Shown here in pieces: positions 13,582-39,835 of a DNA stretch of 64,000 bases. Origin of the DNA: Anadara kagoshimensis. Taxonomy: Eukaryota > Mollusca > Bivalvia > Arcoida > Arcidae. The translations under genes were made by a program, and so were the position numbers. Within the stretch, counting starts at the first letter, position 1. The number at the start of each line of letters is the position of its first letter. The DNA lies in the NCBI GenBank assembly GCA_021292105.1, contig CM037863.1:12940542-13004541 (forward strand), in the 5' to 3' direction. Under the pieces are notes generated by a model. It saw nothing but the letters and a program-made list of their open reading frames with translations, was not told the DNA's origin and searched no databases.

Positions 13582-13583
13582 AA

Positions 13584-13630
13584 TACAGTGTAGACCGGTC
13601 AAAAGTTTTACAATAAGTTAAGGAATAAGA
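13584..13630 (-). mobile_element. MITE family A, left fragment of the copy split by the foldback element
   Basis: tacagtgtagaccggtcaaa followed by agttttacaataagttaa is a family A terminus. It stops at 13630 with ggaataaga, where the foldback element begins. The remainder resumes at 39224. Confidence 0.85.
13622..13630. other. Target-site duplication, left copy (9 bp)
   Basis: ggaataaga stands immediately before the terminal actggtgtgaagc and is repeated exactly at 39224-39232 after gcttcacaccagt. Confidence 0.9.
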
Positions 13631-13857
13631 ACTGGTGTGAAGCTAGCCCGCAATTCTAGCCCGCAATTTTTTAAATATCATCAAGCGGGCAATTCGATTA
13701 TATTTAAATACGGTTAATCCTAATATCATTCCATTTATACATATTTGATATTTAGGGCGACCTGCTATTGCACACAACTTTTTATAAAGACCACCTGTAT
13801 ATTAAGACCACAGGAACCGTGATTCTAAGTGTGATAACGAAATTACGCATAGGGCGT
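13631..13857 (+). repeat. Unique terminal segment of the left inverted arm
   Basis: Starts actggtgtgaagc and includes a direct repeat of tagcccgcaatt, then gggcgacctgc, ataaagaccacctgta and ggaaccgtgattctaagtgt, up to gggcgtaaaatgcg, where the satellite begins. The mirror segment is 38998-39223. Differences are a few single bases, for example tgctattg versus tgcgattg and gtatatt versus gtagatt. Confidence 0.85.
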
Positions 13858-16800
13858 AAAATGCGTTTCCCCATCTAGGCCTTTTAATCACGGGTAGATC
13901 TATCAAATTGCAACATTTGGTGAAAATTTCAAGAACCCTAGAGGGGTAGAACGGGTCTTACGAGAGCTCAGAAAGACCATACCCCCCTTTTGATATGTGA
14001 TTTCGTAAGGACCTGCTACGTTTGAAGTAGCGTACACAGAGAAAATGCGTTTCCCCATCTAGGCCTTTTAACCACGGGTAGATCTATCCAATTGCAACAT
14101 TTGGTGAAAATTTCAAGAACCCTAGAGGGGTAGAACGGGTCTTACGAGAGCTCAGAAGGACCATACCCCCCTTTTGATATGTGATTTCGTAAGGACCTGC
14201 TACGTTTGAAGTAGCGTACACAGAGAAAATGCGTTTCCCCATCTAGGCCTTTTAACCACGGGTAGATCTATCCAATTGCAACATTTGGTGAAAATTTCAA
14301 GAACCCTAGAGGGGTAGAACGGGTCTTACGAGAGCTCAGAAGGACCATACCCCCCTTTTGATATGTGATTTCGTAAGGACCTGCTACGTTTGAAGTAGCG
14401 TACACAGAGAAAATGCGTTTCCCCATCTAGGCCTTTTAACCACGGGTAGATCTATCCAATTGCAACATTTGGTGAAAATTTCAAGAACCCTAAAGGGTAG
14501 AACGGGTCTTACGAGAGCTCAGAAGGACCATACCCCCCTTTTGATATGTGATTTCGTAAGGACCTGCTACGTTTGAAGTAGCGTACACAGAGAAAATGCG
14601 TTTCCCCATCTAGGCCTTTTAACCACTGGTAGATCTATCCAATTGCAACATTTGGTGAAAATTTCAAGAACCCTAGAGGGGTAGAACAGGTCTTACGAGA
14701 GCTCAGAAGGACCATACCCCCCTTTTGATATGTGATTTCGTAAGGACCTGCTACGTTTGAAGTAGCGTACACAGAGAAAATGCGTTTCCCCATCTAGGCC
14801 TTTTAACCACGGGTAGATCTATCCAATTGCAACATTTGGTGAAAATTTCAAGAACCCTAGAGGGGTAGAACGGGTCTTACGAGAGCTCAGAAGGACCATA
14901 CCCCCCTTTTGATATGTGATTTCGTAAGGACCTGCTACGTTTGAAGTAGGGTACACAGAGAAAATGCGTTTCCCCATCTAGGCCTTTTAACCACGGGTAG
15001 ATCTATCCAATTGCAACATTTGGTGAAAATTTCAAGAACCCTAGAGGGGCAGAACGGGTCTTACGAGAGCTCAGAAGGACCATACCCCCCTTTTGATATG
15101 TGATTTCGTAAGGACCTGCTACGTTTGAAGTAGCGTACACAGAGAAAATGCGTTTCCCCATCTAGGCCTTTTAACCACGGGTAGATCTATCCAATTGCAA
15201 CATTTGGTGAAAATTTCAAGAACCCTAGAGGGGTAGAACGGGTCTTACGAGAGATCAGAAGGACCATACCCCCCTTTTGATATGTGATTTCGTAAGGACC
15301 TGCTACGTTTGAAGTAGCGTACACAGAGAAAATGCGTTTCCCCATCTAGGCCTTTTAACCACGGGTAGATCTATCCAATTGCAACATTTGGTGAAAATTT
15401 CAAGAACCCTAGAGGGGTAGAACGGGTCTTACGAGAGCTCAGAAGGACCATACCCCCCTTTTGATATGTGATTTCGTAAGGACCTGCTACGTTTGAAGTA
15501 GCGTACACAGAGAAAATGCGTTTCCCCATCTAGGCCTTTTAACCACGGATAGATCTATCTAATTGCAACATTTGGTGAAAATTTCAAGAACCCTAGAGGG
15601 GTAGAACAGGTCTTACTAGAGCTCAGAAGGACCATACCCCACTTTTGATATGTGATTTCGTAAGGACCTGCTACGTTTGAAGTAGCGTACACAGAGAAAA
15701 TGCGTTTCCCCATCTAGGCCTTTTAACCACGGGTAGATCTATCCAATTGCAACATTTGGTGAAAATTTCAAGAACCCTAGAGGGGTAGAACGGGTCTTAC
15801 GAGAGCTCAGAAGGACCATACCCCCCTTTTGATATGTGATTTCGTAAGGACCTGCTACGTTTGAAGTAGCGTACACAGAGAAAATGCGTTTCCCCATCTA
15901 GGCCTTTTAACCACGGGTAGATCTATCCAATTGCAACATTTGGTGAAAATTTCAAGAACCCTAGAGGGGTAGAACAGGTCTTACGAGAGCTCAGAAGGAC
16001 CATACCCCCCTTTTGATATGTGATTTCGTAAGGACCTGCTACGTTTGAAGTAGCGTACACAGAAAATGCGTTTCCTCATCTAGGCCTTTTAACCACGGGT
16101 AGATCTATCCAATTGCAACATTTGGTGAAAATTTCAAGAACCCTAGAGGGGTAGAACGGGTCTTACGAGAGCTCAGAAGGACCATACCCCCCTTTTGATA
16201 TGTGATTTCGTAAGGACCTGCTACGTTTGAAGTAGCGTACACAGAGAAAATGCGTTTCCTCATCTAGACCTTTTAACCACGGGTAGACCTATCCAACTGC
16301 AACATCTGGTGAAAATTTCAAGAACACTAGAGGGGTAGAACGGATCTTACGAGAGCTCAGAAGGACCATACCCCCTTTTGATATGTGATTTCGTAAGGAC
16401 CTGCTACGTTTGAAGTAGCGTACACAGAGAAAATGCGTTTCCCCATCTAGGCCTTTTAACCACGGGTAGATCTATCCAATTGCAACATTTGGTGAAAATT
16501 TCAAGAACCCTAGAGGGGTAGAACGGGTCTTACGAGAGCTCAGAAGGACCATACCCCCCTTTTGATATGTGATTTCGTAAGGACCTGCTACGTTTGAAGT
16601 AGCGTACACAGAGAAAATGCGTTTTCCCATCTAGGCCTTTTAACCACGGGTAGATCTATCCAATTGCAACATTTGGTGAAAATTTCAAGAACCCTAGAGG
16701 GTGTAGAACGGGTCTTACGAGAGCTCAGAAGGACCATACCCCCTTTTGATATGTGATTTCGTAAGGACCTGCTACGTTTGAAGTGGCGTATACAGAGAAA

Positions 16801-19800
16801 ATGCGTTTCCCCATCTAGGGGTTTTAACCACGGGTAGATCTATCCAATTGCAACATTTGGTGAAAATTTCAAGAACCCTAGAGGGGTAGAACGGGTCTTA
16901 CGAGAGCTCAGAAGGACCATACCCCCCTTTTGATATGTGATTTCGTAAGGACCTGCTACGTTTGAAGTAGCGTACACAGAGAAAATGCGTTTCCCCATCT
17001 AGGCCTTTTAACCACGGTAGATCTATCCAATTGCAACATTTGGTGAAAATTTCAAGAACCTAGAGGGTAGAACGGGTCTTACGAGAGCTCAGAAGGACCA
17101 TACCCCCCTTTTGATATGTGATTTCGTAAGGACCTGCTACGTTTGAAGTGGCGTATACAGAGAAAATGCGTTTCCCCATCTAGGGGTTTTAACCACGGGT
17201 AGATCTATCCAATTGCAACATTTGGTGAAAATTTCAAGAACCCTAGAGGGGTAGAACGGGTCTTACGAGAGCTCAGAAGGACCATACCCCCCTTTTGATA
17301 TGTGATTTCGTAAGGACCTGCTACGTTTGAAGTAGCGTACACAGAGAAAATGCGTTTCCCCATCTAGGCCTTTTAACCACGGGTAGATCTATCCAATTGC
17401 AACATTTGGTGAAAATTTCAAGAACCCTAGAGGGGTAGAACGGGTCTTACGAGAGCTCAGAAGGACCATACCCCCCTTTTGATATGTGATTTCGTAAGGA
17501 CCTGCTACGTTTGAAGTGGCGTATACAGAGAAAATGCGTTTCCCCATCTAGGGGTTTTAACCACGGGTAGATCTATCCAATTGCAACATTTGGTGAAAAT
17601 TTCAAGAACCTAGAGGGGTAGAACGGGTCTTACGAGAGCTCAGAAGGACCATACCCCCCTTTTGATATGTGATTTCGTAAGGACCTGCTACGTTTGAAGT
17701 AGCGTACACAGAGAAAATGCGTTTCCCCATCTAGGCCTTTTAACCACGGGTAGATCTATCCAATTGCAACATTTGGTGAAAATTTCAAGAACCCTAGAGG
17801 GTAGAACGGGTCTTACGAGAGCTCAGAAGGACCATACCCCCCTTTTGATATGTGATTTCGTAAGGACCTGCTACGTTTGAAGTGGCGTATACAGAGAAAA
17901 TGCGTTTCCCCATCTAGGGGTTTTAACCACGGGTAGATCTATCCAATTGCAACATTTGGTGAAAATTTCAAGAACCCTAGAGGGGTAGAACGGGTCTTAC
18001 GAGAGCTCAGAAGGACCATACCCCCCTTTTGATATGTGATTTCGTAAGGACCTGCTACGTTTGAAGTAGCGTACACAGAGAAAATGCGTTTCCCCATCTA
18101 GGCCTTTTAACCACGGGTAGATCTATCCAATTGCAACATTTGGTGAAAATTTCAAGAACCCTAGAGGGGTAGAACGGGTCTTACGAGAGCTCAGAAGGAC
18201 CATACCCCCCTTTTGATATGTGATTTCGTAAGGACCTGCTACGTTTGAAGTGGCGTATACAGAGAAAATGCGTTTCCCCATCTAGGGTTTTAACCACGGG
18301 TAGATCTATCCAATTGCAACATTTGGTGAAAATTTCAAGAACCCTAGAGGGGTAGAACGGGTCTTACGAGAGCTCAGAAGGACCATACCCCCCTTTTGAT
18401 ATGTGATTTCGTAAGGACCTGCTACGTTTGAAGTAGCGTACACAGAGAAAATGCGTTTCCCCATCTAGGCCTTTTAACCACGGGTAGATCTATCCAATTG
18501 CAACATTTGGTGAAAATTTCAAGAACCCTAGAGGGGTAGAACGGGTCTTACGAGAGCTCAGAAGGACCATACCCCCCTTTTGATATGTGATTCGTAAGGA
18601 CCTGCTACGTTTGAAGTGGCGTATACAGAGAAAATGCGTTTCCCCATCTAGGGTTTAACCACGGGTAGATCTATCCAATTGCAACATTTGGTGAAAATTT
18701 CAAGAACCCTAGAGGGGTAGAACGGTCTTACGAGAGCTCAGAAGGACCATACCCCCCTTTTGATAGTGATTTCGTAAGGACCTGCTACGTTTGAAGTAGC
18801 GTACACAGAGAAAATGCGTTTCCCCATCTAGGCCTTTTAACCACGGGTAGATCTATCCAATTGCAACATTTGGTGAAAATTTCAAGAACCCTAGAGGGGT
18901 AGAACGGGTCTTACGAGAGCTCAGAAGGACCATACCCCCCTTTTGATATGTGATTTCGTAAGGACCTGCTACGTTTGAAGTGGCGTATACAGAGAAAATG
19001 CGTTTCCCCATCTAGGGTTTTAACCACGGGTAGATCTATCCAATTGCAACATTTGGTGAAAATTTCAAGAACCCTAGAGGGGTAGAACGGGTCTTACGAG
19101 AGCTCAGAAGGACCATACCCCCCTTTTGATATGTGATTTCGTAAGGACCTGCTACGTTTGAAGTAGCGTACACAGAGAAAATGCGTTTCCCCATCTAGGC
19201 CTTTTAACCACGGGTAGATCTATCCAATTGCAACATTTGGTGAAAATTTCAAGAACCCTAGAGGGGTATTAGAACGGGTCTTACGAGAGCTCAGAAGGAC
19301 CATACCCCCCTTTTGATATGTGATTTCGTAAGGACCTGCTACGTTTGAAGTAGCGTATACAGAGAAAATGCGTTTCCCCATCTAGGGGTTTTAACCACGG
19401 TAGATCTATCCAATTGCAACATTTGGTGAAAATTTCAAGAACCCTAGAGGTGGTAGAACGGGTCTTACGAGAGCTCAGAAGGACCATACCCCCTTTTGAT
19501 ATGTGATTTCGTAAGGACCTGTACGTTTGAAGTAGCGTACACAGAGAAAATGCGTTTCCCCATCTAGGCCTTTTAACCACGGGTAGATCTATCCAATTGC
19601 AACATTTGGTGAAAATTTCAAGAACCCTAGAGGGGTAGAACGGGTCTTACGAGAGCTCAGAAGGACCATACCCCCCTTTTGATATGTGATTTCGTAAGGA
19701 CCTGCTACGTTTGAAGTAGCGTACACAGAGAAAATGCGTTTCCCCATCTAGGCCTTTTAACCACGGGTAGATCTATCCAATTGCAACATTTGGTGAAAAT

Positions 19801-21547
19801 TTCAAGAACCCTAGAGGGGTAGAACGGGTCTTACGAGAGCTCAGAAGGACCATACCCCCCTTTTGATATGTGATTTCGTAAGGACCTGCTACGTTTGAAG
19901 TAGCGTACACAGAGAAAATGCGTTTCCCCATCTAGGCCTTTTAACCACGGGTAGATCTATCCAATTGCAACATTTGGTGAAAATTTCAAGAACCCTAGAG
20001 GGGTAGAACGGGTCTTACGAGAGCTCAGAAGGACCATACCCCCCTTTTGATATGTGATTTCGTAAGGACCTGCTACGTTTGAAGTAGCGTACACAGAGAA
20101 AATGCGTTTCCCCATCTAGGCCTTTTAACCACGGGTAGATCTATCCAATTGCAACATTTGGTGAAAATTTCAAGAACCCTAGAGGGGTAGAACGGGTCTT
20201 ACGAGAGCTCAGAAGGACCATACCCCCCTTTTGATATGTGATTTCGTAAGGACCTGCTACGTTTGAAGTAGCGTACACAGAGAAAATGCGTTTCCCCATC
20301 TAGGCCTTTTAACCACGGGTAGATCTATCCAATTGCAACATTTGGTGAAAATTTCAAGAACCCTAGAGGGGTAGAACGGGTCTTACGAGAGCTCAGAAGG
20401 ACCATACCCCCCTTTTGATATGTGATTTCGTAAGGACCTGCTACGTTTGAAGTAGCGTACACAGAGAAAATGCGTTTCCCCATCTAGGCCTTTTAACCAC
20501 GGGTAGATCTATCCAATTGCAACATTTGGTGAAAATTTCAAGAACCCTAGAGGGGTAGAACGGGTCTTACGAGAGCTCAGAAGGACCATACCCCCCTTTT
20601 GATATGTGATTTCGTAAGGACCTGCTACGTTTGAAGTAGCGTACACAGAGAAAATGCGTTTCCCCATCTAGGCCTTTTAACCACGGGTAGATCTATCCAA
20701 TTGCAACATTTGGTGAAAATTTCAAGAACCCTAGAGGGGTAGAACGGGTCTTACGAGAGCTCAGAAGGACCATACCCCCCTTTTGATATGTGATTTCGTA
20801 AGGACCTGCTACGTTTGAAGTAGCGTACACAGAGAAAATGCGTTTCCCCATCTAGGCCTTTTAACCACGGGTAGATCTATCCAATTGCAACATTTGGTGA
20901 AAATTTCAAGAACCCTAGAGGGGTAGAACGGGTCTTACGAGAGCTCAGAAGGACCATACCCCCCTTTTGATATGTGATTTCGTAAGGACCTGCTACGTTT
21001 GAAGTAGCGTACACAGAGAAAATGCGTTTCCCCATCTAGGCCTTTTAACCACGGGTAGATCTATCCAATTGCAACATTTGGTGAAAATTTCAAGAACCCT
21101 AGAGGGGTAGAACGGGTCTTACGAGAGCTCAGAAGGACCATACCCCCCTTTTGATATGTGATTTCGTAAGGACCTGCTACGTTTGAAGTAGCGTACACAG
21201 AGAAAATGCGTTTCCCCATCTAGGCCTTTTAACCACGGGTAGATCTATCCAATTGCAACATTTGGTGAAAATTTCAAGAACCCTAGAGGGGTAGAACGGG
21301 TCTTACGAGAGCTCAGAAGGACCATACCCCCCTTTTGATATGTGATTTCGTAAGGACCTGCTACGTTTGAAGTAGCGTACACAGAGAAAATGCGTTTCCC
21401 CATCTAGGCCTTTTAACCACGGGTAGATCTATCCAATTGCAACATTTGGTGAAAATTTCAAGAACCCTAGAGGGGTAGAACGGGTCTTACGAGAGCTCAG
21501 AAGGACCATACCCCCCTTTTGATATGTGATTTCGTAAGGACCTGCTA
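13858..21547 (+). repeat. 184-bp satellite array, left arm, about 42 copies
   Basis: atgcgtttccccatctaggc recurs at 13861, 14045, 14229 and 14413, an exact 184-bp period at first, with 1-4 bp indels later. Units include tagatctatccaattgcaac, gaaccctagaggggtagaac and the small palindrome gctacgtttgaagtagc. Units at 19.6-21.5 kb are almost identical. The array stops abruptly at 21547 within gacctgctat. There is no conserved reading frame, since 184 is not a multiple of 3. Confidence 0.95.
16780..19400 (+). repeat. Dimeric higher-order repeat (~367 bp) inside the left arm
   Basis: Two unit types alternate: gaagtggcgtatacagag with catctagggg(t)tttaa, and gaagtagcgtacacagag with catctaggccttttaa. 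The first type occurs near 16780, 17146, 17513, 17879, 18248, 18613 and 18978, so the true period here is two units, repeated about seven times. Array ends outside this block are of one type only. Confidence 0.85.
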
Positions 21548-23063
21548 TATTTTGGAACCCTACATATAAATAAGGTCCATTTTTGGTGTTTAAAAAGCTC
21601 GTTTAAAATACTACAAAATATGGGGAAAAATAACACCCTTAACAGATCGTTTTCGAGATAAATGACGTTCCGTCAAAGGTACAAAATAGCACTATTAACA
21701 TGTCGCATGAGACCATCATGAGCTGGCCGTAGATTCGTACACACACAACACAATTTACCGCTAGTTATATGTTCAAGTACGTTTCGCTGCATCTTCCTTT
21801 CTAATGTTTTTGATTTAATCATCATTTTCCGGTTGTTAGGGCAACAAGTCGTTGCTATGGCAATTTTCTTGATTATTTTTGAAGTTTAGACCGTGGACGA
21901 AAATACGAAACTCTTGTATGATACCTGAAGTGGCGTACATGGAGTAAAATAAGCCCTCGGTCTTTAGGCTTGTTAGGTAATCATATTACTACGCGAATAT
22001 CATATCACCGTATTCCAAACGTAATTGCCTTTCTAAATGAAAATATCATGGCTCTGTTTCCATACATTTGTAGTTCTATTTTTTTTATTAAAAAATCTTT
22101 GAACGAAGCACATGGCCGCATATTGTGTTACGCACTATTTGGGTCCCTTGCACGGAATTACCTAAAACTGGAGCGCACGGAAATATAATCATATTAAAAA
22201 CCCAACGTTGGTTTGCCAATATTCTTAGCCTACACTTTTTGAGGACTCTCTATGGAGTCTTTGTATGGAGTAAATTTCAAAGCTATTCATGAGAAATAAG
22301 CAACTTATGTAAAGAATGTATTAGTGAAATATTCCCTTAAAATAGTATTCCAAGGAATACTAATTCACTGAATTTTCTTGTTACGTTTCTTTTTCATCTT
22401 TTTTCACAAAAAATCATATGACCTTTGGTCATTCAGATGATGCGATATTTGACGTTTTAAGGATCTGAAACTTGTAATTTGTTCAGAGTGAAGGGTCAAG
22501 ATCATGACTTAATTCATTTATTCGTGTTTTGTTTGATTTTACATATTTGATATACATTTGTCTATAACTTTTTTATGTTTAGAAGCAATGATTTTTAACA
22601 CGAAGACAAAGTCGAACTCGACAATAAAAACTGTATTGTTGATAAACTTTTAAAACTTTATGTGAGCTTAGGCCATTTTTAGTTTTCATGTTTTCATAGC
22701 ATGGCATTCAAAACGGAGTAAATGTTAAAGCTCTGAATTAGTTTTGAAATTGTGAGCTTTTTCCTCTATATTTGTTACATTTCAATTTTGAGTTTTTACT
22801 TACACTGCTCTTTTACCATTGATCAAGTTTAAAAGCCAAGGTACTGACCTCATTTGAAAATTAATCCTGAAAATGCTAAATCTGGACTATATTTGTTGCA
22901 ATGGTCTTCATAATCATAATAGAGTTTTATATCTTTATGAGTTATAATTATGAATATATTTGAAGCCGATTTTAATTTAGATTTTAATTTTTGTAATTTT
23001 AAATAGACATTTTTGGTCATGTGTAATTCCATGACTAAGATATTGATTTCGTTTGTATAGTAT

Positions 23064-23120
<57 letters not shown>

Positions 23121-24900
23121 TTTATTTGGAAAAGCCGAGACTTCGAAGCTTTTTGGTAAATTCAAAAGAAGTAAGCTAATGGAATTTAGTCGAGTTTGCA
23201 AATAAGCATATGATAGACGCCAGGGTGGATGACGCATTGCAAAAAATGAGGTCAAAGGTCACTGAATGGAAAAAAAATTAATTATATCCTGGACATAATG
23301 TGCCCTTATCTTGCAAAAAACATATAACTTTTATTTGCAATAATTTTGAGATAAATAGAACATATTGTATAGTGATGATTGTTTTTAAAACTGCATGACG
23401 TTAAATAAACAAAATTTTAAGATAAATATTGCCAAAATCTTGTCCAAATACATGTAGAATAATTAATTTTTGAAACATAAATTTGTGAAGATGTAAGAAA
23501 AGATCATATCCACCAAGTTTACTATGCCAGTCTGCAAAAAACATATACATGTATATAGAAATTAATCAAAGTACTGAGAGTACTCTAGGTAGAGATTTAG
23601 CTTTTAGCTATATATAAAATATTAATATATGTTATGTTCTGAATGTTACAATAAAACAGAAGTAAAATAAATATTTTCATCAGATAATAATATTACTAAG
23701 GACATATGTTTAATCGATATGAATGTGATGTTTTCAATGGCGTTTAAGTAATATTTAGTGCTAAGATGCTGTTGATTTTGTGACAATTGGATTACTCTGA
23801 TTATCAAAATGGACATAGCGAACACTTATACACTTTTTAACGTAGTAATATAAAGGAGAAAAATTTGCAATTGAAAACATTTTTAATATCCTATGCAAAT
23901 AAGAATGTAAAACAATAAATGATTCAACAGACAAACAAGACCAGATAAATACATATCGGCACCACTGAGTATAAAATCCCGAGATTTGGACGGGAATCAC
24001 CAGTAGTTTAAAAGCAAAATCCGCTTTTTTATTAAAAAGTATATAGATGATAGGACAAAAACGAGGAATAAATAAATAAGGAACTATTATACCTTCTTTT
24101 GATGTTAGTTTCCTTAATGGCTGCCATTCATGTTTAAATAATTTTTTGAAATGTGTAGATCATCACTAGGGTTTGGTACTGAAGATCATAAAAAGGTCAA
24201 AGGTCAAATGAGTGAATTATATCATGAAATATACATATAAACTTTCTAATACTAGAAAATTCGGCATATTTATGAGTAATTACCTCAAAATAATATAAAA
24301 CTAAGTTTTAGAAGTATATATATGTATCAAACGAAATCGACCAGAATTTGCACTTGAGGTAGACCAAAGTATAGTGGATGAGTTAAATATTTTATTTTCA
24401 GTGTTGATGGCATATATTGTTTAACAATCTTGATGATATTAAAATATATATTAGTAATATTTGTTTTTATAATGCTTTGGGATTTTGGTTTAGACATGGA
24501 TTGGTATGTTTGTTATGATAACTTCATATTTATGATATGATGCAATGCTGAAAGCTATTATTCTTTTTCACTTTTTCTCGATTCTTGGAGGTTTTGACAG
24601 TTCTAAAGCAACTTTTTCCTTACTACTTTCCAAAAGAAAATTTATGTTTGAAATTGAAATTGTTGGAATTGTTCATTTTCTTACAGACATGACAATATCA
24701 TTATGATCATGTACTTGTGTTTTGACAAATATATTAACATTGATAATGATATGTAATGATTCCTTAAACTGTCTCAGTTTTTCAGCACTAGAAATCAGCC
24801 AAAATAGGCGCTTAGTAAGACCACTCGTGCATTTTGTATGTACTAATCTGTAAAAATTGGTGTAATGATGTTTTGGTGTTTATCTCAAAATGTGGTTGAT
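21548..24900. other. Centre of the foldback element, left part
   Basis: AT-rich unique sequence. No transposase motif was recognised, and frames such as 21970-22188 and 23761-24000 match nothing I know. A trace, tgaagtggcgtacatggagt at 21924-21943, resembles the 184-bp unit and may be a diverged copy. A (TTTA)n microsatellite lies at 23061-23126. Autonomous coding capacity could be hidden in introns, but I see no evidence of it. Confidence 0.5.
23061..23126. repeat. (TTTA)n microsatellite
   Basis: About 16 nearly pure ttta/attt units. Confidence 0.95.
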
Positions 24901-24924
24901 GACTTTTCGTGTCAATAACTTTAA

Positions 24925-26300: not shown

Positions 26301-29300
26301 AATCCCACGTGATTATAGAAAATGAAGTAAATAATGTTTATTTGGAAAGAAGCACAAAGTAATCATTTTTGGCATTTTTCATTTATGCATTTTAATAATT
26401 AAATAGTATATCCATATATGTAGAATGTCCAATACATTTCCCCAATACAATATTGCAATAGAAAAGATGTGTCTCTACAAACAGATCGAAATGTATTCCA
26501 TATATCAGTATTCCACGACAAGGGCACACAAAATTAGAATAAACTGGGAACATGTTGAGGTAGGCCCATACATTGAAAACATATTTTGAAATTTTAATAT
26601 GTTGTACATGGGCATTAACCACTCAACATGCCAAAATTTCAAGGTAGGTATTCAGAATACTTAAGAAAATTCTAAGCGCCATCTGGTGGACATTTTCACG
26701 ACATAAATGGTCAAAAATAATAAGCTTTAATACTTTTTGCCATGCTTAGAATCCAAAAGAGTCTTGCATTTAAATTTAACATTATGTCATAAAGATAATT
26801 TGGACTAATTGATTTTACTTCCGGACATGCGGTATTTTTCTACTGCGCCGCCTATCAAGAAAGAACATTAAAATTTCGGAAAACTAAAAGTAACACCCTT
26901 TCGTTATTTTGATGTTTTATAAAAAATACGATCGCTGATTTTAACATGTGTTGCGCATGAATATATAAGTTTAGAAAAAATAGGGGGTAGTCAAGCTACT
27001 TTTTTCATAAAATTGCATTAAAATCAAAACCAAGATTAGAAACCTTATTCCTTACATTAGAACTCACCATTAATGTCCTAGGATACAATTTTAAACTCAA
27101 TGTTTTTCGTTTGGTGTTAACAAATAAGCAAAAACAGTGATAATGAGCTATTTGGCTTTGCAAAACAAAACGAATTTGAAATACCATATTATCTGTACCC
27201 CTAGCAACCCTTACCAATACCAACGAATTAAATTGGAAAGAGGAGTCGTATACATTGATGAAGGGTTCTTGATTCTAGGCCGCTGAAATGAAAAGCAAAT
27301 ACAAGAGCATAGTCAAAATTTGACACTGAGAAAAATTATTATGAAGTATGTTTATTGAACAACCGTGCGTTTGCGTCGTACTATTTTTATTTGAATAACC
27401 CTTCTCCCAAAAAAGTCACATAAAGCAGCGATATAAAACACAGTACCTCAAATTTTAAACGACGTTCTCAAATCTTTCAAATATTTAGATTTGCGCCCTC
27501 AAAAGTGTAGATCTTCCTTATTTCCGTTAAATTATACATTTTGTTCTTTAAAAATAATACACAACATTGGTGTTGTGAATTATAAGCTTTTGTGAATGCA
27601 GATAATTATTCTAAATGATACGCATTAGAGCGTCCCGCCATAATTCGGTAGGTGCCGAACACCATTTATTCGTGACGTCATAGGTAGAAAGACGTAAAAT
27701 CGGAGAGTTTGTCCTTACGCACAAAACGACGACGTCACCATGGTATGGATATACCTTAAAAGATTGTGGGATTTATAAGTTGTTATAATAATAGATGTGT
27801 GTATAAATTGTTTTTGTTAATGCCTTTTAATTCTGTTCTGTAACATATACAGAGAAATAAAAAATATTTAGAGCACTGTATAAGGGTTTTTACACTCGCT
27901 AGTGTGTTTTTATTTTGTCAATTTCTGAATACGGTGTTTTTATACTCACTGAATAATGTTTTTTAGTTTTGATACTAACTGAACAAGGTGTCTTATTATA
28001 AAACGGAATACAAAAGTAAGTCATCCGGTTTCATTGAAATAACGATATTCTTATACAATCTGAAATCATTTTAATTATCTTTATTAATTAAACACTAGAT
28101 ATTTAACATTTTTATTACATTTATTCTGATGATCACATTACTAGTAAGTGAAACTCAAGTCAAGCATTAGCTAGAACAAAATGTCGCCTTAGTAATTTAG
28201 CTATAAAAATAGTGTAATGTAATTAATGTGCGATTACTTTTCGAGTTTGTTCAGTGGAATATGTCATTCAATTATTTATCTTACAAAAACTCGTCTGTAG
28301 TTTACGTTACATAATAAACATCATCAGAAACATCAATAGTGATGTACCGTAATTCGTCAGTCAGTTATTTAGTTATTAAAGGTGTACCCAGTAATTCAAA
28401 CAAGTGCGCGTCTAGTTGTTTGCAGAACAATTACACTAGGATTAAGATTTATTTATTTGAAATGTTTTGCAACTTTTACCCAATTGAGATTTAATGTTAA
28501 ATCTGTTCTTTCTCTGAATTATAATTAGACTCTAATGGTTGTGAAAAAGTGTCATTGAGAAATTAGGATATACGTTAGACAAAAGCATTGTATTCAAGAC
28601 ATCAGTATTCAGTTACATGTACACGTTAACGCTTAATATTGACAGTTCTTTTTAAATATATGTGATTTTGGCACTTTCAAAGCGGGTGTTATATAAACAA
28701 AATGTTAAACTACAACCACAATTTCCTTATTTCCGGTACTCATATTGCTTGTTTTATATAAGTATTCGAATGAAATGATCGTTAGAATTACACTTATTTG
28801 AACCTTTGACACCAAAATGACTTAACATCGTAACATCTGGATTGGAATCCACTCTAAAACCACTATATGTATCCCAAGCAAAAATTTCAGAATGAATTGT
28901 CAGTTATTGACCATTGACAAAAATATCATCAAATGTAAATTTAAGCATAAAAATAGAGTTGTCAGCCAGACTATTACATATTATTGTTTTGCAATGACTG
29001 TTTTAAAGATACAGTGCCAAAATGAGAAAATGCATTCGTCACTCGGTTTAGTTTTGAAATATTAATACATTGAGAATTTAACATTACATCACATACTTTT
29101 AATTATGTGTTTCCTCATACGGTGTGGCTGAATGATTTAGGGGTAAAAAACAATTATATCTTCTCAATGAATTTATTTGAAATTTGTCATACATCATTAA
29201 ATAACATAGTTATATATATACATGTATATAGTAACCCACTATAGGTATAGTTCATATGGTGTAATATTGTTGTGAAAATAATCCTGGAGTCGTTTGTGTA

Positions 29301-29951
29301 CATCCAACACCCAGATTTAACCTATCATTGACGTCATTGTCCTAACATCTTGACAGAATAGACACTTATCAATGAAATTTAAAACATCAGATTTTGCATA
29401 TAAATTACGGTTTTAGAATTTACTCTCATATTAATTATTTACCAAATAAAAATTTAACTTACAAAATTAATTCCATAAAACCACATTTAAAATAAACGGA
29501 CAACATTTCTACACTTAAAATTGTTTAAACGTACTTGGAAACGTTAAATTCATATCATTTAAACAGACGATTATGAGTATATGTATCTATCGCTTAAATA
29601 AACATGTTTTATATTAGTTGTTTTATTATAATTATGGTTACAGAATAAGTAAATGGTGATGTTGTATTTGCCGTTTAGAACTCATAGTCAACCTAATACA
29701 TAGAGCACTTTCAGTACTTTGATTAATTCTGTAAACTTTTTATATGTGCCATAATGCGTTTGAAAAGGTACACCTGGTGCATAATTATGCAGTTTCTTCT
29801 TACATCGACACTATAATTTTTATTTTATGGTTAAAATAAATAAACATTGTATTTAGTTTTTCAACTTGTTACATTTTGTAATAAATGTTGGAAATATGAT
29901 TTCCAACATTCCATGTAATTAAAAACAGAAAACTAGTTATCATAGTAATTC
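26301..29951. other. Centre of the foldback element, right part
   Basis: AT-rich unique sequence without a recognisable gene. Loose repeats of gtgtttttat-ctcactgaata words lie at 27885-28000, and a tatatacatgtatata palindrome is near 29215-29230. No transposase domain was seen. Confidence 0.45.
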
Positions 29952-32900
29952 CGAGCTCTTGTTAGTCCCGTTCTTCGCCTCTAGGGTTCTTGAAAACCAA
30001 ATGTTGCAATTGGATATATCTACCCGTGATTAAAAGCCCTAGATGGGGAAAGTAATTTTCTCTGTGTACGCTACTTCAAACGTAGCAGGTCCTTACGAAA
30101 TCACATATCAAAAGGGGGGTATGGTCCTTCTGAGCTCTCGTAAGACCCGTTCTACCCCTCTAGGGTTCTTGAAATTTTCACCAAATGTTGCAATTGGATA
30201 GATCTACCCGTGGTTAAAAGGCCTAGATGGGGAAACGCATTTTCTCTGTGTACGCTACTTCAAACGTAGCAGGTCCTTACGAAATCACATATCAAAAGGG
30301 GGGTATGGTCCTTCTGAGCTCTCGTAAGACCCGTTCTACCCCTCTAGGGTTCTTGAAATTTTCACCAAATGTTGCAATTGGATAGATCTACCCGTGGTTA
30401 AAAGGCCTAGATGGGGAAACGCATTTTCTCTGTGTACGCTACTTCAAACGTAGCAGGTCCTTACGAAATCACATATCAAAAGGGGGGTATGGTCCTTCTG
30501 AGCTCTCGTAAGACCCGTTCTACCCCTCTAGGGTTCTTGAAATTTTCACCAAATGTTGCAATTGGATAGATCTACCCGTGGTTAAAAGGCCTAGATGGGG
30601 AAACGCATTTTCTCTGTGTACGCTACTTCAAACGTAGCAGGTCCTTACGAAATCACATATCAAAAGGGGGGTATGGTCCTTCTGAGCTCTCGTAAGACCC
30701 GTTCTACCCCTCTAGGGTTCTTGAAATTTTCACCAAATGTTGCAATTGGATAGATCTACCCGTGGTTAAAAGGCCTAGATGGGGAAACGCATTTTCTCTG
30801 TGTACGCTACTTCAAACGTAGCAGGTCCTTACGAAATCACATATCAAAAGGGGGGTATGGTCCTTCTGAGCTCTCGTAAGACCCGTTCTACCCCTCTAGG
30901 GTTCTTGAAATTTTCACCAAATGTTGCAATTGGATAGATCTACCCGTGGTTAAAAGGCCTAGATGGGGAAACGCATTTTCTCTGTGTACGCTACTTCAAA
31001 CGTAGCAGGTCCTTACGAAATCACATATCAAAAGGGGGGTATGGTCCTTCTGAGCTCTCGTAAGACCCGTTCTACCCCTCTAGGGTTCTTGAAATTTTCA
31101 CCAAATGTTGCAATTGGATAGATCTACCCGTGGTTAAAAGGCCTAGATGGGGAAACGCATTTTCTCTGTGTACGCTACTTCAAACGTAGCAGGTCCTTAC
31201 GAAATCACATATCAAAAGGGGGTATGGTCCTTCTGAGCTCTCGTAAGACCCGTTCTACCCCTCTAGGGTTCTTGAAATTTTCACCAAATGTTGCAATTGG
31301 ATAGATCTACCCGTGGTTAAAAGGCCTAGATGGGGAAACGCATTTTCTCTGTGTACGCTACTTCAAACGTAGCAGGTCCTTACGAAATCACATATCAAAA
31401 GGGGGGTATGGTCCTTCTGAGCTCTCGTAAGACCCGTTCTACCCCTCTAGGGTTCTTGAAATTTTCACCAAATGTTGCAATTGGATAGATCTACCCGTGG
31501 TTAAAAGGCCTAGATGGGGAAACGCATTTTCTCTGTGTACGCTACTTCAAACGTAGCAGGTCCTTACGAAATCACATATCAAAAGGGGGTATGGTCCTTC
31601 TGAGCTCTCGTAAGACCCGTTCTACCCCTCTAGGGTTCTTGAAATTTTCACCAAATGTTGCAATTGGATAGATCTACCCGTGGTTAAAAGGCCTAGATGG
31701 GGAAACGCATTTTCTCTGTGTACGCTACTTCAAACGTAGCAGGTCCTTACGAAATCACATATCAAAAGGGGGGTATGGTCCTTCTGAGCTCTCGTAAGAC
31801 CCGTTCTACCCCTCTAGGGTTCTTGAAATTTTCACCAAATGTTGCAATTGGATAGATCTACCCGTGGTTAAAAGGCCTAGATGGGGAAACGCATTTTCTC
31901 TGTGTATACTTTCAAACGTAGCAGGTCCTTACGAAATCACATATCAAAAGGGGGTATGGTCCTTCTGAGCTCTCGTAAGACCCGTTCTACCCCTCTAGGG
32001 TTCTTGAAATTTTCACCAAATGTTGCAATTGGATAGATCTACCCGTGGTTAAAAGGCCTAGATGGGGAAACGCATTTTCTCTGTGTACGCTACTTCAAAC
32101 GTAGCAGGTCCTTACGAAATCACATATCAAAAGGGGGTATGGTCCTTCTGAGCTCTCGTAAGACCCGTTCTACCCCTCTAGGGTTCTTGAAATTTTCACC
32201 AAATGTTGCAATTGGATAGATCTACCCGTGGTTAAAAGGCCTAGATGGGGAAACGCATTTTCTCTGTGTACGCTACTTCAAACGTAGCAGGTCCTTACGA
32301 AATCACATATCAAAAGGGGGGTATGGTCCTTCTGAGCTCTCGTAAGACCCGTTCTACCCCTCTAGGGTTCTTGAAATTTTCACCAAATGTTGCAATTGGA
32401 TAGATCTACCCGTGGTTAAAAGGCCTAGATGGGGAAACGCATTTTCTCTGTGTACGCTACTTCAAACGTAGCAGGTCCTTACGAAATCACATATCAAAAG
32501 GGGGGTATGGTCCTTCTGAGCTCTCGTAAGACCCGTTCTACCCCTCTAGGGTTCTTGAAATTTTCACCAAATGTTGCAATTGGATAGATCTACCCGTGGT
32601 TAAAAGGCCTAGATGGGGAAACGCATTTTCTCTGTGTACGCTACTTCAAACGTAGCAGGTCCTTACGAAATCACATATCAAAAGGGGGTATGGTCCTTCT
32701 GAGCTCTCGTAAGACCCGTTCTACCCCTCTAGGGTTCTTGAAATTTTCACCAAATGTTGCAATTGGATAGATCTACCCGTGGTTAAAAGGCCTAGATGGG
32801 GAAACGCATTTTCTCTGTGTACGCTACTTCAAACGTAGCAGGTCCTTACGAAATCACATATCAAAAGGGGGTATGGTCCTTCTGAGCTCTCGTAAGACCC

Positions 32901-35900
32901 GTTCTACCCCTCTAGGGTTCTTGAAATTTTCACCAAATGTTGCAATTGGATAGATCTACCCGTGGTTAAAAGCCTAGATGGGGAAACGCATTTCTCTGTG
33001 TACGCTACTTCAAACGTAGCAGGTCCTACGAAATCACATATCAAAAGGGGGGTATGGTCCTTCTGAGCTCTCGTAAGACCCGTTCTACCCCTCTAGGGTT
33101 CTTGAAATTTTCACCAAATGTTGCAATTGGATAGATCTACCCGTGGTTAAAAGGCCTAGATGGGGAAACGCATTTTCTGTGTACGCTACTTCAAACGTAG
33201 CAGGTCCTTACGAAATCACATATCAAAAGGGGGTATGGTCTTCTGAGCTCTCGTAAGACCCGTTCTACCCCTTAGGGTTCTTGAAATTTTCACAAATGTT
33301 GCAATTGGATAGATCTACCTGTGGTTAAAAGGCCTAGATGGGGAAACGCATTTTTCTGTGTACGCTACTTCAAACGTAGCAGGTCCTTACGAAATCACAT
33401 ATCAAAAGGGGGGTATGGTCCTTCTGAGCTCTCGTAAGACCCGTTCTACCCCTCTAGGGTTCTTGAAATTTTCACCAAATGTTGCATTGGATAGATCTAC
33501 CCGTGGTTAAAACCCTAGATGGGGAAACGCATTTTCTCTGTGTACGCACTTCAAACGTAGCAGGTCCTTACGAAATCACATATCAAAAGGGGGGTATGGT
33601 CCTTCTGAGCTCTCGTAAGACCCGTTCTACCCCTCTAGGGTTCTTGAAATTTTCACCAAATGTTGCAGTTGGATAGATCTACCCGTGGTTAAAAGCCCTA
33701 GATGGGGAAACGCATTTTCTCTGTGTACGCCACTTCAAACGTAGCAGGTCCTTACGAAATCACATATCAAAAGGGGGGTATGGTCCTTCTGGCATTCGTA
33801 AGACCCGTTCTACCCCTCTAGGGTTCTTGAAATTTTCACCAAATGTTGCAGTTGGATAGATCTACCCGTGCATGAAAGCCCTAGGGGGAAACGCATTTTC
33901 TCTGTGTACGCCACTTCAAACGTATCAGGTCCTTACGAAATCACATATCAAAAGGGGGTATGGTCCTTCTGAGCTCTCGTAAGATCCGTTCTACCCCTCT
34001 AGTGTTCTTGAAATTTTCACCAGATGTTGCAGTTGGATAGTCTACCCGTGGTTAAAAGCCCTAGATGGGGAAACGCATTTTCTGTGTACGCACTTCAAAC
34101 GTAGCAAGTCCTTACGAAATCACATATCAAAAGGGGGGTATGGTCCTTCTCAGCTCTCGTAAGACCCGTTCTATCCCTCTAGGGTTCTTGAAATTTTCAC
34201 CAAATGTTGCAATTGGATAGATCTACCCGTGGTTGAAAGCCCTAGATGGGGAAACGCATTTTCTCTGTGTACGCCACTTCAAACGTATCAGGTCCTTACG
34301 AAATCACATATCAAAAGGGGGTATGGTCCTTCTGAGCTCTCGTAAGACCCGTTCTACCCCTCTAGTGTTCTTGAAATTTTCACCAGATGTTGCAGTTGGA
34401 TAGGTCTACCCGTGGTTAAAAGCCCTAGATGGGGAAACGCGTTTTCTCTGTGTACCACTTCAAACGTAGCAGGTCCTTACGAAATCACATATCAAAAGGG
34501 GGTATGGTCCTTCTGAGCTCTCGTAAGATCCGTTCTACCCCTCTAGGTTCTTGAAATTTTCACCAGTTGCAGTTGGATAGTCTACCCGTGGTTAAAAGCC
34601 CTAGATGGGGAAACGCATTTCTCTGTGTACGCTACTTCAAACGTAGCAAGTCCTAACGAAATCACATATCAAAAGGGGGGTATGGTCCTTCGTAGCTCTC
34701 GTAAGACCCGTTCTACCCCTCTAGGGTTCTTGAAATTTTCACCAAATGTTGCAATTGGATAGATCTACCCGTGGTTAAAAGGCCTAGATGGGGAAACGCA
34801 TTTTGACTGTGTACGCTACTTCAAACGTAGCAAGTCCTTACGAAATCACATATCAAAAGGGGAATGGTCTTCTGAGCTCTCGTAAGACCCGTTCTACCCC
34901 TTTAGGGTTCTTGAAATTTTCACAAAATGTTGCAATTGGATAGATCTACCGTGGTTAAAACCCCTAGATGGGGAAACGCATTTTTTCTGTGTACGCTACT
35001 TCAAACGTAGCAGGTCCTTACGAAATCACATATCAAAAGGGGGGTATGGTCCTTCTGAGCTCTCGTAAGACCCGTTCTACCCCTCTAGGGTTCTTGAAAT
35101 TTTCACCAAATGTTGCATTGGATAGATCTACCCGTGGTTAAAACCCTAGATGGGGAAACGCATTTTCTCTGTATACGCCACTTCAAACGTAGCAGGTCCT
35201 TACGAAATCACATATCAAAAGGGGGGTATGGTCCTTCTGAGCTCTCGTAAGACCCGTTCTACCCCTCTAGGGTTCTTGAAATTTTCACCAATGTTGCATT
35301 GGATAGATCTACCGTGGTTAAAAGCCTAGATGGGGAAACGCATTTTCTCTGTGTACGCCACTTCAAACGTAGCAGGTCCTTACGAAATCACATATCAAAA
35401 GGGGGGTATGGTCCTTCTGGGCATTCGTAAGACCCGTTCTACCCCTCTAGGGTTCTTGAAATTTTCACCAAATGTTGCAGTTGGATAGATCTACCCGTGG
35501 TTGAAAGCCCTAGATGGGGAAACACATTTTCTCTGTGTACGCCACTTCAAACGTATCAGGTCCTTACGAAATCACATATCAAAAGGGGGTATGGTCCTTC
35601 TGAGCTCTCGTAAGACCCGTTCTACCCCTCTAGGGTTCTTGAAATTTTCACCAAATGTTGCAGTTGGATAGATCTACCCGTGGTTGAAAGCCCTAGATGG
35701 GGAAACGCATTTTCTCTGTGTACGCCACTTCAAACGTAGCAGGTCCTTACGAAATCACATATCAAAAGGGGGTATGGTCCTTCTGAGCTCTCGTAAGATC
35801 CGTTCTACCCCTCTAGTGTTCTTGAAATTTTCACCAGATGTTGCAGTTGGATAGGTCTACCCGTGGTTAAAAGCCCTAGATGGGGAAACGCATTTTCTCT

Positions 35901-38900
35901 GTGTACGCCACTTCAAACGTAGCAGGTCCTTACGAAATCACATATCAAAAGGGGGTATGGTCCTTCTGAGCTCTCGTAAGACCCGTTCTACCCCTCTAGG
36001 GTTCTTGAAATTTTCACCAAATGTTGCAGTTGGATAGATCTACCCGTGGTTAAAAGGCCTAGATGGGGAAACGCATTTTGACTGTGTACGCTACTTCAAA
36101 CGTAGCAAGTCCTTACGAAATCACATATCAAAAGGGGGTATGGTCTTTCTGAGCTCTCGTAAGACCCGTTCTACCCCTTTAGGGTTCTTGAAATTTTCAC
36201 AAAATGTTGCAATTGGATAGATCTACCTGTGGTTAAAACCCCTAGATGAGGAAACGCATTTTTTCTGTGTACGCTACTTCAAACGTAGCAGGTCCTTACG
36301 AAATCACATATCAAAAGGGGGGTATGGTCCTTCTGAGCTCTCGTAAGACCCGTTCTACCCCTCTAGGGTTCTTGAAATTTTCACCAAATGTTGCAGTTGG
36401 ATAGATCTACCCGTGGTTAAAACCCCTAGATGGGGAAACGCATTTTCTCTGTATACGCCACTTCAAACGTAGCAGGTCCTTACGAAATCACATATCAAAA
36501 GGGGGGTATGGTCCTTCTGAGCTCTCGTAAGACCCGTTCTACCCCTCTAGGGTTCTTGAAATTTTCACCAGATGTTGCAGTTGGATAGATCTACCCGTGG
36601 TTAAAAGCCCTAGATGGGGAAACGCATTTTCTCTGTGTACGCCACTTCAAACGTAGCAGGTCCTTACGAAATCACATATCAAAAGGGGGGTATGGTCCTT
36701 CTGGGCATTCGTAAGACCCGTTCTACCCCTCTAGGGTTCTTGAAATTTTCACCAAATGTTGCAGTTGGATAGATCTACCCGTGCATGAAAGCCCTAGATG
36801 GGGAAACGCATTTTCTCTGTGTACGCCACTTCAAACGTATCAGGTCCTTACGAAATCACATATCAAAAGGGGGTATGGTCCTTCTGAGCTCTCGTAAGAT
36901 CCGTTCTACCCCTCTAGTGTTCTTGAAATTTTCACCAGATGTTGCAGTTGGATAGGTCTACCCGTGGTTAAAAGCCCTAGATGGGGAAACGCATTTTCTA
37001 TGTGTACGCCACTTCAAACGTAGCAAGTCCTTACGAAATCACATATCAAAAGGGGGGTATGGTCCTTCTCAGCTCTCGTAAGACCCGTTCTATCCCTCTA
37101 GGGTTCTTGAAATTTTCACCAAATGTTGCAATTGGATAGATCTACCCGTGGTTGAAAGCCCTAGATGGGGAAACGCATTTTCTCTGTGTACGCCACTTCA
37201 AACGTATCAGGTCCTTACGAAATCACATATCAAAAGGGGGTATGGTCCTTCTGAGCTCTCGTAAGACCCGTTCTACCCCTCTAGTGTTGAAATTTTCACC
37301 AGATGTTGCAGTTGGATAGGTCTACCCGTGGTTAAAAGCCCTAGATGGGGAAACGCGTTTTCTCTGTGTACGCCACTTCAAACGTAGCAGGTCCTTACGA
37401 AATCACATATCAAAAGGGGTATGTCCTTCTGAGCTCTCGTAAGATCCGTTCTACCCCTCTGGTTCTTGAAATTTTCACCAGATGTTGCAGTTGGATAGGT
37501 CTACCCGTGGTTAAAAGCCCTAGATGGGGAAACGCATCTTCTCTGTGTACGCTACTTCAAACGTAGCAAGTCCTAACGAAATCACATATCAAAAGGGGGG
37601 TATGGTCCTTCGTAGCTCTCGTAAGACCCGTTCTACCCCTCTAGGGTTCTTGAAATTTTCACCAAATGTTGCAATTGGATAGATCTACCCGTGGTTAAAA
37701 GGCTAGATGGGGAAACGCATTTTGACTGTGTACGCTACTTCAAACGTAGCAAGTCCTTACGAAATCACATATCAAAAGGGGGTATGGTCTTTCTGAGCTC
37801 TCGTAAGACCCGTTCTACCCCTTTAGGGTTCTTGAAATTTTCACAAAATGTTGCAATTGGATAGATCTACCCGTGGTTAAAACCCCTAGATGGGGGAAAC
37901 GCATTTTTTCTGTGTACGCTACTTCAAACGTAGCAGGTCCTTACGAAATCACATATCAAAAGGGGGGTATGGTCCTTCTGAGCTCTCGTAAGACCCGTTC
38001 TACCCTCTAGGGTTCTTGAAATTTTCACCAAATGTTGCAGTTGGATAGATCTACCCGTGGTTAAAACCCTAGATGGGGAAACGCATTTTCTCTGTATACG
38101 CCACTTCAAACGTAGCAGGTCCTTACGAAATCACATATCAAAAGGGGGGTATGGTCCTTCTGAGCTCTCGTAAGACCCGTTCTACCCCTCTAGGGTTCTT
38201 GAAATTTTCACCAGATGTTGCAGTTGGATAGATCTACCCGTGGTTAAAAGCCCTAGATGGGGAAACGCATTTTCTCTGTGTACGCCACTTCAAACGTAGC
38301 AGGTTACGAAATCACATATCAAAAGGGGGGTATGGTCCTTCTGGGCATTCGTAAGACCCGTTCTACCCCTCTAGGGTTCTTGAAATTTTCACCAAATGTT
38401 GCAGTTGGATAGATCTACCCGTGGTTGAAAGCCCTAGATGGGAAACACATTTTCTCGTGTACGCCACTTCAAACGTATCAGGTCCTTACGAAATCACATA
38501 TCAAAAGGGGGTATGGTCCTTCTGAGCTCTCGTAAGACCCGTTCTACCCCTCTAGGGTTCTTGAAATTTTCACCAAATGTTGCAGTTGGATAGATCTACC
38601 CGTGGTTGAAAGCCCTAGATGGAAACGCATTTTCTCTGTGTACGCCACTTCAAACGTAGCAGGTCCTTACGAAATCACATATCAAAAGGGGTATGGTCCT
38701 TCTGAGCTCTCGTAAGATCCGTTCTACCCCTCTAGTGTTCTTGAAATTTTCACCAGATGTTGCAGTTGGATAGGTCTACCCGTGGTTAAAAGCCCTAGAT
38801 GGGGAAACGCATTTTCTCTGTGTACGCCACTTCAAACGTAGCAGGTCCTTACGAAATCACATATCAAAAGGGGGTATGGTCCTTCTGAGCTCTCGTAAGA

Positions 38901-38997
38901 CCCGTTCTACCCTCTAGGGTTCTTGAAATTTTCACCAAATGTTGCAGTTGGATAGATCTACCCGTGGTTAAAAGCCCTAGATGGGGAACGCATTTTA
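29952..38997 (-). repeat. 184-bp satellite array, right arm (inverted), about 49 copies
   Basis: The same unit as 13858-21547 in reverse complement. It starts with a diverged partial unit (gagctcttgttagtcccgtt). Units from 30.1 to about 32.9 kb are nearly identical to each other and to the inner units of the left arm. From about 33 kb outward the units vary strongly, with indels and marker variants (ccttctgggcattcg, cccgtgcatgaaag, tctagtgttcttg, gttgcagttgg) arranged in multi-unit blocks. Confidence 0.95.
33480..38997 (-). repeat. Multi-unit higher-order repeat in the outer right arm
   Basis: The variant ccttctggg(g)cattcgtaag occurs near 33786, 35415, 36707 and 38338. The intervals are about 1.63, 1.29 and 1.63 kb, that is 9, 7 and 9 units. 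The variant cccctagatg followed by cattttttctgtgtacgc recurs near 34968, 36240 and 37885. The same succession of unit types is repeated, which points to block duplication rather than unit-by-unit growth. Confidence 0.75.
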
Positions 38998-39223
38998 CGC
39001 CCTATGCGTAATTTCGTAATCACACTTAGAATCACGGTTCCTGTGGTCTTAATCTACAGGTGGTCTTTATAAAAAGTTGTGTGCAATCGCAGGTCGCCCT
39101 ATATATCAAATATTTATAAATGGAATGATATTAGGATTAACCGTATTTAAATAAAATCGAATTGCCCGCTTGATGATATTTAAAAAATTGCGGGCTAGAA
39201 TTGCGGGCTAGCTTCACACCAGT
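38998..39223 (-). repeat. Unique terminal segment of the right inverted arm
   Basis: The inverted counterpart of 13631-13857, from acgccctatgcgtaatttcg to gctagcttcacaccagt. It is nearly identical over its full length. Confidence 0.85.
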
Positions 39224-39420
39224 GGAATAAGAGTGTAGAATTGGCAGCTCAATTCGACCTCTCGTTGGCTAAACCTCGACAGCTTTTTGGTAGCTGATAT
39301 CTGTCTCTCAGCCGGTTTTTTCAGCAATTATTTATATCCATACTTCGGCCATTTGACAGCCTAATCTTTGACTACTTTTAGTTAGCTCGGTGTTAAACTT
39401 TCGACATGCTTGTACGGTAC
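39224..39420 (-). mobile_element. MITE family A, right fragment of the split copy (with 9-bp duplication at its start)
   Basis: 39224-39232 is the second ggaataaga. The MITE then continues with gtgtagaattggcagctc, cgacagctttttggtagctg and ctcggtgttaaactttcgac, ending at about 39420. Together with 13584-13630 it makes one near full-length reverse-oriented copy of about 235 bp. Confidence 0.85.
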
Positions 39421-39644: not shown

Positions 39645-39835
39645 CAGTACAGACCTGTCGAAAGTTAACACAATTGTTGCGAATTCGACAGGAGTCGAAC
39701 TCGGTCGTTAGGTAGTCAAGATTTGGATACCAAGTAGCCAGAAAGCTGGCGACATATAGATAGCAGCTATCGAATAGATATAGCTTACGAGGGGCCGAGA
39801 TAAGCTTCTTATTAAGTACTAATTTGTTATCTCTG

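Follow-up and report, generated by a model that had tools for sequence, protein, structure and literature searches.

The stretch of DNA considered here (the window) covers 64,000 nucleotides of the bivalve Anadara kagoshimensis, positions 12940542-13004541 of contig CM037863.1 (C7), in a genome assembly of 1.115 Gb and 36 contigs (GCA_021292105.1). It contains an element of 25.6 kb, bounded by two copies of a 9-bp sequence, whose inverted arms are long arrays of a 184-bp satellite. The element belongs to a real and young foldback family with satellite arms larger than those of any published family to which it was compared. Copies of the family are named by the number of their contig (C1a, C7b and so on). 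With positions counted from the first letter of the window, the insertion site and the parts of the window copy are as follows.

13553..13612, no strand assigned: target neighbourhood, with two matches to the 29-bp motif TACAGTACAGACCTGTCGAAAGTTTAACA (24/29 and 27/29), 18 and 49 bp before the insertion
13622..13630, no strand assigned: left target site duplication GGAATAAGA
13631-39223: the window element, between the two GGAATAAGA copies (whole block including the duplications, 13622-39232)
13631..13857, + strand: left terminal segment, 227 bp, starting ACTGGTGTGAAGCTAGCCCGCAATT and holding a 13-bp direct repeat CTAGCCCGCAATT
13858..21547, + strand: left arm, 41.9 copies of the 184-bp unit (Tandem Repeats Finder, TRF; 98% matches)
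21548..29948, no strand assigned: core, 8.4 kb (8,401 bp), A+T-rich, apparently non-coding, with a fragment like a long interspersed nuclear element (LINE)
29949..38996, - strand: right arm, 49.6 copies of the 184-bp unit, reversed (TRF, 95% matches)
38997..39223, - strand: right terminal segment, 227 bp, with 97.4% identity to its left counterpart (BLAST)
39224..39232, no strand assigned: right target site duplication GGAATAAGA

The first 69 bp of the two ends (ACTGGTGTGAAGC...) are identical, and in the full 227 bp there are 6 aligned bases at which they differ. The description of the terminal inverted repeats (TIRs) as exact, given in an earlier note on this DNA, therefore holds for their outer part and not for the full 227 bp, while the oppositely oriented 184-bp arrays of about 42 and 49 copies that it reported agree with the TRF counts. 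The G+C content of the core is 29% overall and ranges from 26 to 36% in 500-bp steps.

A family of elements with one plan

The 13-bp tip ACTGGTGTGAAGC occurs 359 times in the genome, as opposed to twice for its reversed control. Among the first 100 tip places listed, at least 26 convergent end pairs could be counted, from 88 bp to 27.1 kb long and including the window element. Nineteen of these pairs were examined, again with that of the window: 16 long ones (5.6-27 kb) and three short ones (88-222 bp). Mirrored ends and inward 184-bp arrays are found in all 16 long copies, the left end of C3a matching over 201 bp only. The tip count and the recurrence of the same plan in 15 other long copies exclude a chance origin of the structure in the window. 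The size of the arrays varies widely, left arms having about 3 to 55 units and right arms about 4 to 50 (7 to 99 in total), so that a single copy holds up to about 18,000 bp of satellite DNA and its arms reach about 10 kb.

With the 227-bp end as a query, the genome gave 269 first-look candidates, and the 40 that were scored (the window's own two included) are all 97-100% identical. Further copies with ends starting actggtgtgaagc, for which the earlier note had proposed to look, are thus present in number, both as tip places and as end candidates. If the candidate ends are real and pair, there would be roughly 130 copies genome-wide. An exact 32-mer of the 184-bp unit occurs 4,501 times, with no occurrence of its control. 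Since the examined copies hold 456 occurrences of this 32-mer in 596 units, a first-look estimate of the genome total is about 5,900 units, or 1.1 Mb, if these copies are typical.

The tips are unevenly divided between the strands, with 132 forward and 227 reverse genome-wide. They are balanced on C1-C7 (47 to 50), and contigs C8 and higher carry about 92 surplus reverse tips, perhaps an array of element ends; pattern searches for the source of this surplus on these contigs did not locate such an array. Three 227-bp ends on the same strand and 22 kb apart (C17:3310980, 3333076 and 3355094) possibly mark a tandem array of whole elements. At C1:15933463-15934295 (L003/L004), two ends of a diverged subfamily lie 820 bp apart in the same direction, and unit-like sequence adjoins the end at 15933463. 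On C3, two solo elements of 222 bp that are identical and whose flanks are nearly so (C3:65796358-65796579 and C3:66912238-66912459) lie 1.1 Mb from each other and represent a segmental duplication.

Insertion as one block

A perfect duplication of exactly 9 bp flanks 12 of the 16 long copies and also the 88-bp element; the two 222-bp relatives, which are duplicates of each other, have one of 8 bp. The state of the site before insertion was sought for 19 copies by joining the left and right flanks with one 9-bp copy and matching the 71 bases of the junction within the copy's own 500-bp flanks. Beside C7a (19.0 kb, 55 units), the neighbouring tandem unit is the empty site at 71 of 71 bases, and beside C1b this is the case at 70 of 71. 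A weaker match was found for C3a (61/71), and no empty site appeared in these flanks for the other 16 copies (31-38 of 71 bases), some of which also lie beside tandem repeats. The proposal of the earlier note that the whole block inserted as one unit is borne out by these duplications and empty sites, and its suggestion to examine other two-ended copies for duplication and array length is answered by the 12 of 16 and the 7 to 99 units given above.

A transposon could in principle be mimicked by a satellite locus of the ordinary kind that carries an inversion, or by a product of assembly, as long arrays are hard to assemble and C7c could be a misjoin. Such an origin is hardly credible in view of the convergent end pairs, at least 26 of them in the first 100 places of the listing, and of the same anatomy in 16 copies, and it is already contradicted by the perfect duplications and the empty sites. 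Long inverted termini holding tandem repeats, in every one of the 16 long copies, combined with target site duplications are instead what characterizes a foldback transposon, and the insertion of such a transposon as one block is strongly supported.

A conserved core without long reading frames

The same core is found in 15 of the 16 long copies at 7.4-9.2 kb, except for C5d, where an additional insertion of about 5.8 kb brings it to 14.3 kb; the core of C3a has been reduced to 323 bp by a deletion. The cores of the other copies are mostly 97-99% identical to that of the window. Pairwise, they differ by 0.2-16.7 substitutions per kb, and by 52-58 per kb when the old copy C1a is compared. The lowest value, 0.2 per kb, belongs to the duplicated pair C6b/C7c, and the next lowest is 1.3 per kb. 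An 801-bp piece of the core gave 1,127 first-look candidates in the genome, of which all 40 scored, including the window copy and other copies already examined, are 98-100% identical over essentially the full length.

In the window core, no stop-to-stop frame exceeds 132 aa, and none exceeds 170 aa in the cores of the 16 long copies (the figure for C5d includes its insertion). A Pfam scan covered 45 of the 65 window-core pieces of at least 40 aa. One piece, placed by eye at 26105-26269 on the + strand, has a weak zf-RVT match (E 0.00027) and is a LINE remnant; single matches to four further families had E values of 0.018 to 0.088. A transposase within the core was thus rejected for the pieces searched. 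With no long frames and no transposase domain in the pieces scanned, the element is taken as non-autonomous, and a copy with these ends that encodes a transposase, for which the earlier note had suggested a search, did not turn up among the 16.

A core common to 15 of 16 copies might still be thought of as a split gene, with the element autonomous and its transposase divided among short exons that a six-frame look would miss; frames below 40 aa and 20 of the 65 pieces do lie outside the scan. This is improbable, as the 16 cores hold no frame above 170 aa, the 45 pieces yielded zf-RVT and weaker matches in place of a transposase domain, and the youth of the copies alone explains why the core is conserved.

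The source of the transposase

A non-autonomous element would depend on a transposase made elsewhere. The 9-bp duplications fall at the size expected of the Mutator superfamily, 9 bp (8-10), and from this, and no more than this, we infer that the enzyme is most likely Mutator-like. Helitrons are not known to have TIRs or target duplications, and the element has both. Duplications of 8-9 bp are also made by transposases of the P/Galileo, hAT and Merlin types, the size in Galileo itself differing from 9 bp, and mobilization by one of these classes is a possible, if less favoured, alternative. The 8 bp of the two 222-bp relatives (mutual duplicates) would suit it, as would the long repeat-bearing ends of Galileo, a member of the P superfamily (PMC3573991). 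It is also in line with the fact that no Mutator partner with ACTGGTGTGAAGCTAG ends was found: matches to Mutator-like elements (MULEs) all lie more than 147 kb from the 173 end places considered, out of 359 tip places, and from 23 further core places. The exact 9 bp in all 12 long copies that have a duplication is, on the other hand, the common size for MULE transposases (PMC3169594). No P-type (THAP) match was among the Pfam matches of the window-core pieces, and no P-type search of the genome was made.

The genome contains 76 matches to the MULE transposase domain PF10551 (150 of 152 candidates scored). Ten of them share an identical score of 35.0 bits, so the MULE family that they represent is probably young. 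The locus L049 (C9:27403300-27407300) presumably belongs to it, with an intact frame of 461 aa (open reading frame 1172-2557), a 34.8-bit MULE match and subterminal inverted ACCGCGACATT repeats.

Age and turnover of the satellite arms

Substitutions in the units were scored against one family consensus, with insertions and deletions left uncounted, and 266 of the 596 units are free of them. The total number of units is unrelated to the private substitutions of the core (Spearman rho 0.02, n=15; C3a, having no core, was left out), and copy age was accordingly rejected as the cause of array length. The youngest copies include the long-armed C7a, C4b and window copy. In the left arm of C7b, 2 substitutions were found in 8.8 kb where the rate of its core predicts 24: since its insertion, this array has been renewed or has been replaced by that of another element. 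The arms of the old copy C1a carry 33 and 43 substitutions, against 61.6 predicted for each from the core.

The right arm of the window copy shows the opposite, with 177 substitutions against 6.5 expected. Most of its variants also occur in other elements (123 cells shared and 54 private), so that this diversity predates the insertion or was imported. Substitution-free units adjoin the core of the window copy on both sides, 11 on the left and 17 on the right, and the outer units on the right carry 2-10 substitutions each. Growth of the arrays from the core side is suggestive only, since the mean per position over the pooled arms shows a weak trend and the right arm of C2b ends in a changed unit.

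Many single unit variants are common to different elements. Unit haplotypes with three or more substitutions are not shared between any of the examined copies, and no array can therefore be traced through successive jumps. Of the 4,501 unit matches, the 100 listed (from C1, and from C2 up to 49.7 Mb) are all located at element arms or next to an end, apart from two solitary copies, and none is in a free array. The 184-bp satellite is spread by the element; the idea in the earlier note that the family seeds satellite DNA found no footing in these matches.

Probable exchange between elements

The 227-bp ends fall by eye into three haplotype groups, two of which are combined in C4b, C5c, C6b, C6c and C7b. 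C6b and C7c, which lie on different contigs (C6 and C7), can be aligned colinearly over 12.4 kb with 99.4% identity, a length that takes in 500 bp of C6b flank. A further 4,001 aligned bp of flank contain 2 mismatches and 10 gap letters, bringing the shared flank to at least 4.5 kb. The far ends and far flanks of the two copies differ, and the 9-bp duplication is present in C6b and absent in C7c. This is most simply explained by ectopic recombination, or by copying that stopped within an arm, although the likeness could also come from an assembly misjoin through the repeats in C7c.

Target choice

The 29-bp motif (at least 21/29 bases, within 100 bp) occurs at 13 of the 18 loci and in 17 of 35 flanks, a count from which three flanks of duplicated copies had first been removed; among the loci with a 9-bp duplication, 9 of 13 have it. 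A 20-mer of the target (at most 1 mismatch) gave 9 matches in the 2.8 kb within 80 bp of insertions, at 8 of 18 loci. This density of 3.2 per kb compares with 0.0343 per kb genome-wide (38,224 matches), a 94-fold excess (P 3e-14, an optimistic value because the motif was derived from the same flanks), and the excess is too large to come from this derivation alone. From 80 to 500 bp, 10 matches still amount to an excess of about 20-fold, so the wider neighbourhood of insertions is also rich in the motif. Motif CAGTACAGACCTGTCGAAAG is the landing mark of the transposon.

Motif CAGTACAGACCTGTCGAAAG is dispersed in the genome, with 38,224 copies at up to 1 mismatch, some of them in tandem at a spacing of 43, 86 or 97 bp. 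In the window (at most 3 mismatches) it lies at 2648-3593, 13365-13579, 39645-40294 and 50558-50655, and the target motif recurs in minisatellites, as at window positions 2629-3622. Other repeats of the window are a 9.5-kb array of a 115-bp satellite (51159-60647), which has related sequence, in single stretches 42-47 bp long, in the DNA flanking C2a, C6a2 and C6s, and two short tandem arrays with units of 19 and 92 bp (7263-8269 and 9057-9482), which are strongly strand-skewed and have related TCACAA motifs.

Comparison with known systems

Fold-back arms with tandem repeats are known from the Mutator-related elements FoldBack (FB/NOF) of Drosophila and FARE of Arabidopsis, with arms far shorter than those described here. 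Both are named in the papers on Tm1 of root-knot nematodes and on Tetris (PMC3169594; PMC4079207). In kind, the family resembles Tetris, a foldback element of Drosophila virilis in which an outer flanking domain is followed by a variable number of tandem repeats of about 220 bp (PMC4079207). Both have long three-part TIRs, variable tandem repeats and a middle that lacks, or here appears to lack, coding capacity; Tetris makes duplications of 8-10 bp and its transposase was not found (PMC4079207), just as none was found for the present family with its 9-bp duplications. In scale, the family goes well beyond Tetris. By description (the sequences were not compared), its unit is of 184 bp, its arms extend to about 10 kb and its core is fixed, in contrast to the variable middle of Tetris, the TIRs of which reach 1,735 bp and of which three structurally complete copies are reported (PMC4079207). 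A derivation of the 184-bp unit from the end segment, as in Tetris, was tried and rejected, the best match being no better than shuffles. The repeats of Tetris feed satellite arrays, and its authors propose that transposition may have been disrupted by arrays of larger size (PMC4079207). The present family speaks against that idea as far as it is itself concerned, because its long-armed copies are as young as the short-armed ones, and C7a, C4b and the copy in the window rank with the youngest. In the parts available, two later papers on D. virilis add nothing on array size (PMC12910113; PMC6922343).

Galileo likewise has long, internally repetitive TIRs, with direct repeats of about 210 bp that differ in number between the ends, it has chimeric copies, and it is known to cause inversions; in contrast to the present family, one subfamily has two or three repeats per TIR, the TIRs measure about 1.2 kb and a P-type transposase is present (PMC3573991). 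Like the present family, Tm1 of root-knot nematodes has composite TIRs in which the tandem repeats vary, duplications that are mostly of 9 bp, and non-autonomous groups; it departs from the family in a repeat unit of about 14 bp, a known Phantom-type transposase and the lack of a target consensus in the eyes of its authors (PMC3169594). Helitrons of oyster and other animals also carry and spread satellite-like arrays, but these sit in the central part of the element (PMC12628747). In a literature search outside which most subscription papers fell, no family came to light with satellite arms of several kb in young, mobile and numerous copies; plant MULEs with multiple TIRs (PMC3310237) and reviews were among what it brought up. 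The view of the earlier note that such arms go far beyond FoldBack and Mutator-like elements agrees with this outcome as to their size, but the principle is known from Tetris and Galileo.

Interpretation

The family is very probably one of young, non-autonomous foldback-type DNA transposons with 227-bp ends, variable 184-bp arrays and an apparently non-coding core of 8.4 kb, mobilized in trans and exchanging its arms. A transposase made elsewhere, most likely Mutator-like, would recognize the conserved tips, move the whole block of 5.6-27 kb and leave a 9-bp duplication, and insertion favours sites 13-58 bp from a dispersed minisatellite core motif. Before and after insertion, the arms would change quickly in length and sequence through exchange of units, for which we infer unequal crossing-over, gene conversion or slippage. 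As copies have the 184-bp unit in common, arms may also recombine between elements, mixing end types and sometimes rearranging chromosomes.

Several observations weigh against this interpretation. No transposase with the ends of the element was found, the nearest of the 76 Mutator-type matches lying 148 kb from any of the end and core places considered, and L049 was rejected as a partner, as no tip like ACTGGTGTGAAGC lies within its 4 kb and its subterminal repeats are unrelated. The 9-bp duplication is absent at four of the 16 long copies (C1a, C5c, C5d and C7c), the target motif is missing from the nearest 100 bp at five of the 18 loci, and the array lengths come from a single assembly. The left arm of C4b has no private variants against 10.9 expected, yet 8 substitutions in all, and the right arm of C2b has 1 private site against 20.5 expected, yet 34 substitutions in all, private sites being judged against 596 units in arrays and 15 copies in cores, two measures that are not strictly alike. 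With these arms low in private variants and not in all substitutions, renewal after insertion is firm for C7b only.

A more tentative extension, which we consider rather unlikely as it stands, is that of a self-dispersing satellite. Transposition, or the repair that ensues, would amplify the 184-bp arms, perhaps starting beside the core and proceeding outward, and each jump could begin with a few master-type units and restore arms of 3 to 55 units. By landing in other minisatellites, the element would spread an inverted, recombination-prone satellite over the chromosomes and create segmental duplications between them.

It has long been asked how satellite DNA comes to lie at scattered sites of a genome. 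In this family, datable copies of 7 to 99 units each carried their arrays or regrew them, two of them at sites where the empty form is still visible. The notion that transposons seed satellites, formerly inferred from remnants, becomes measurable copy by copy, in terms of the array relative to insertion age, of exchange between chromosomes and of the choice of landing site.

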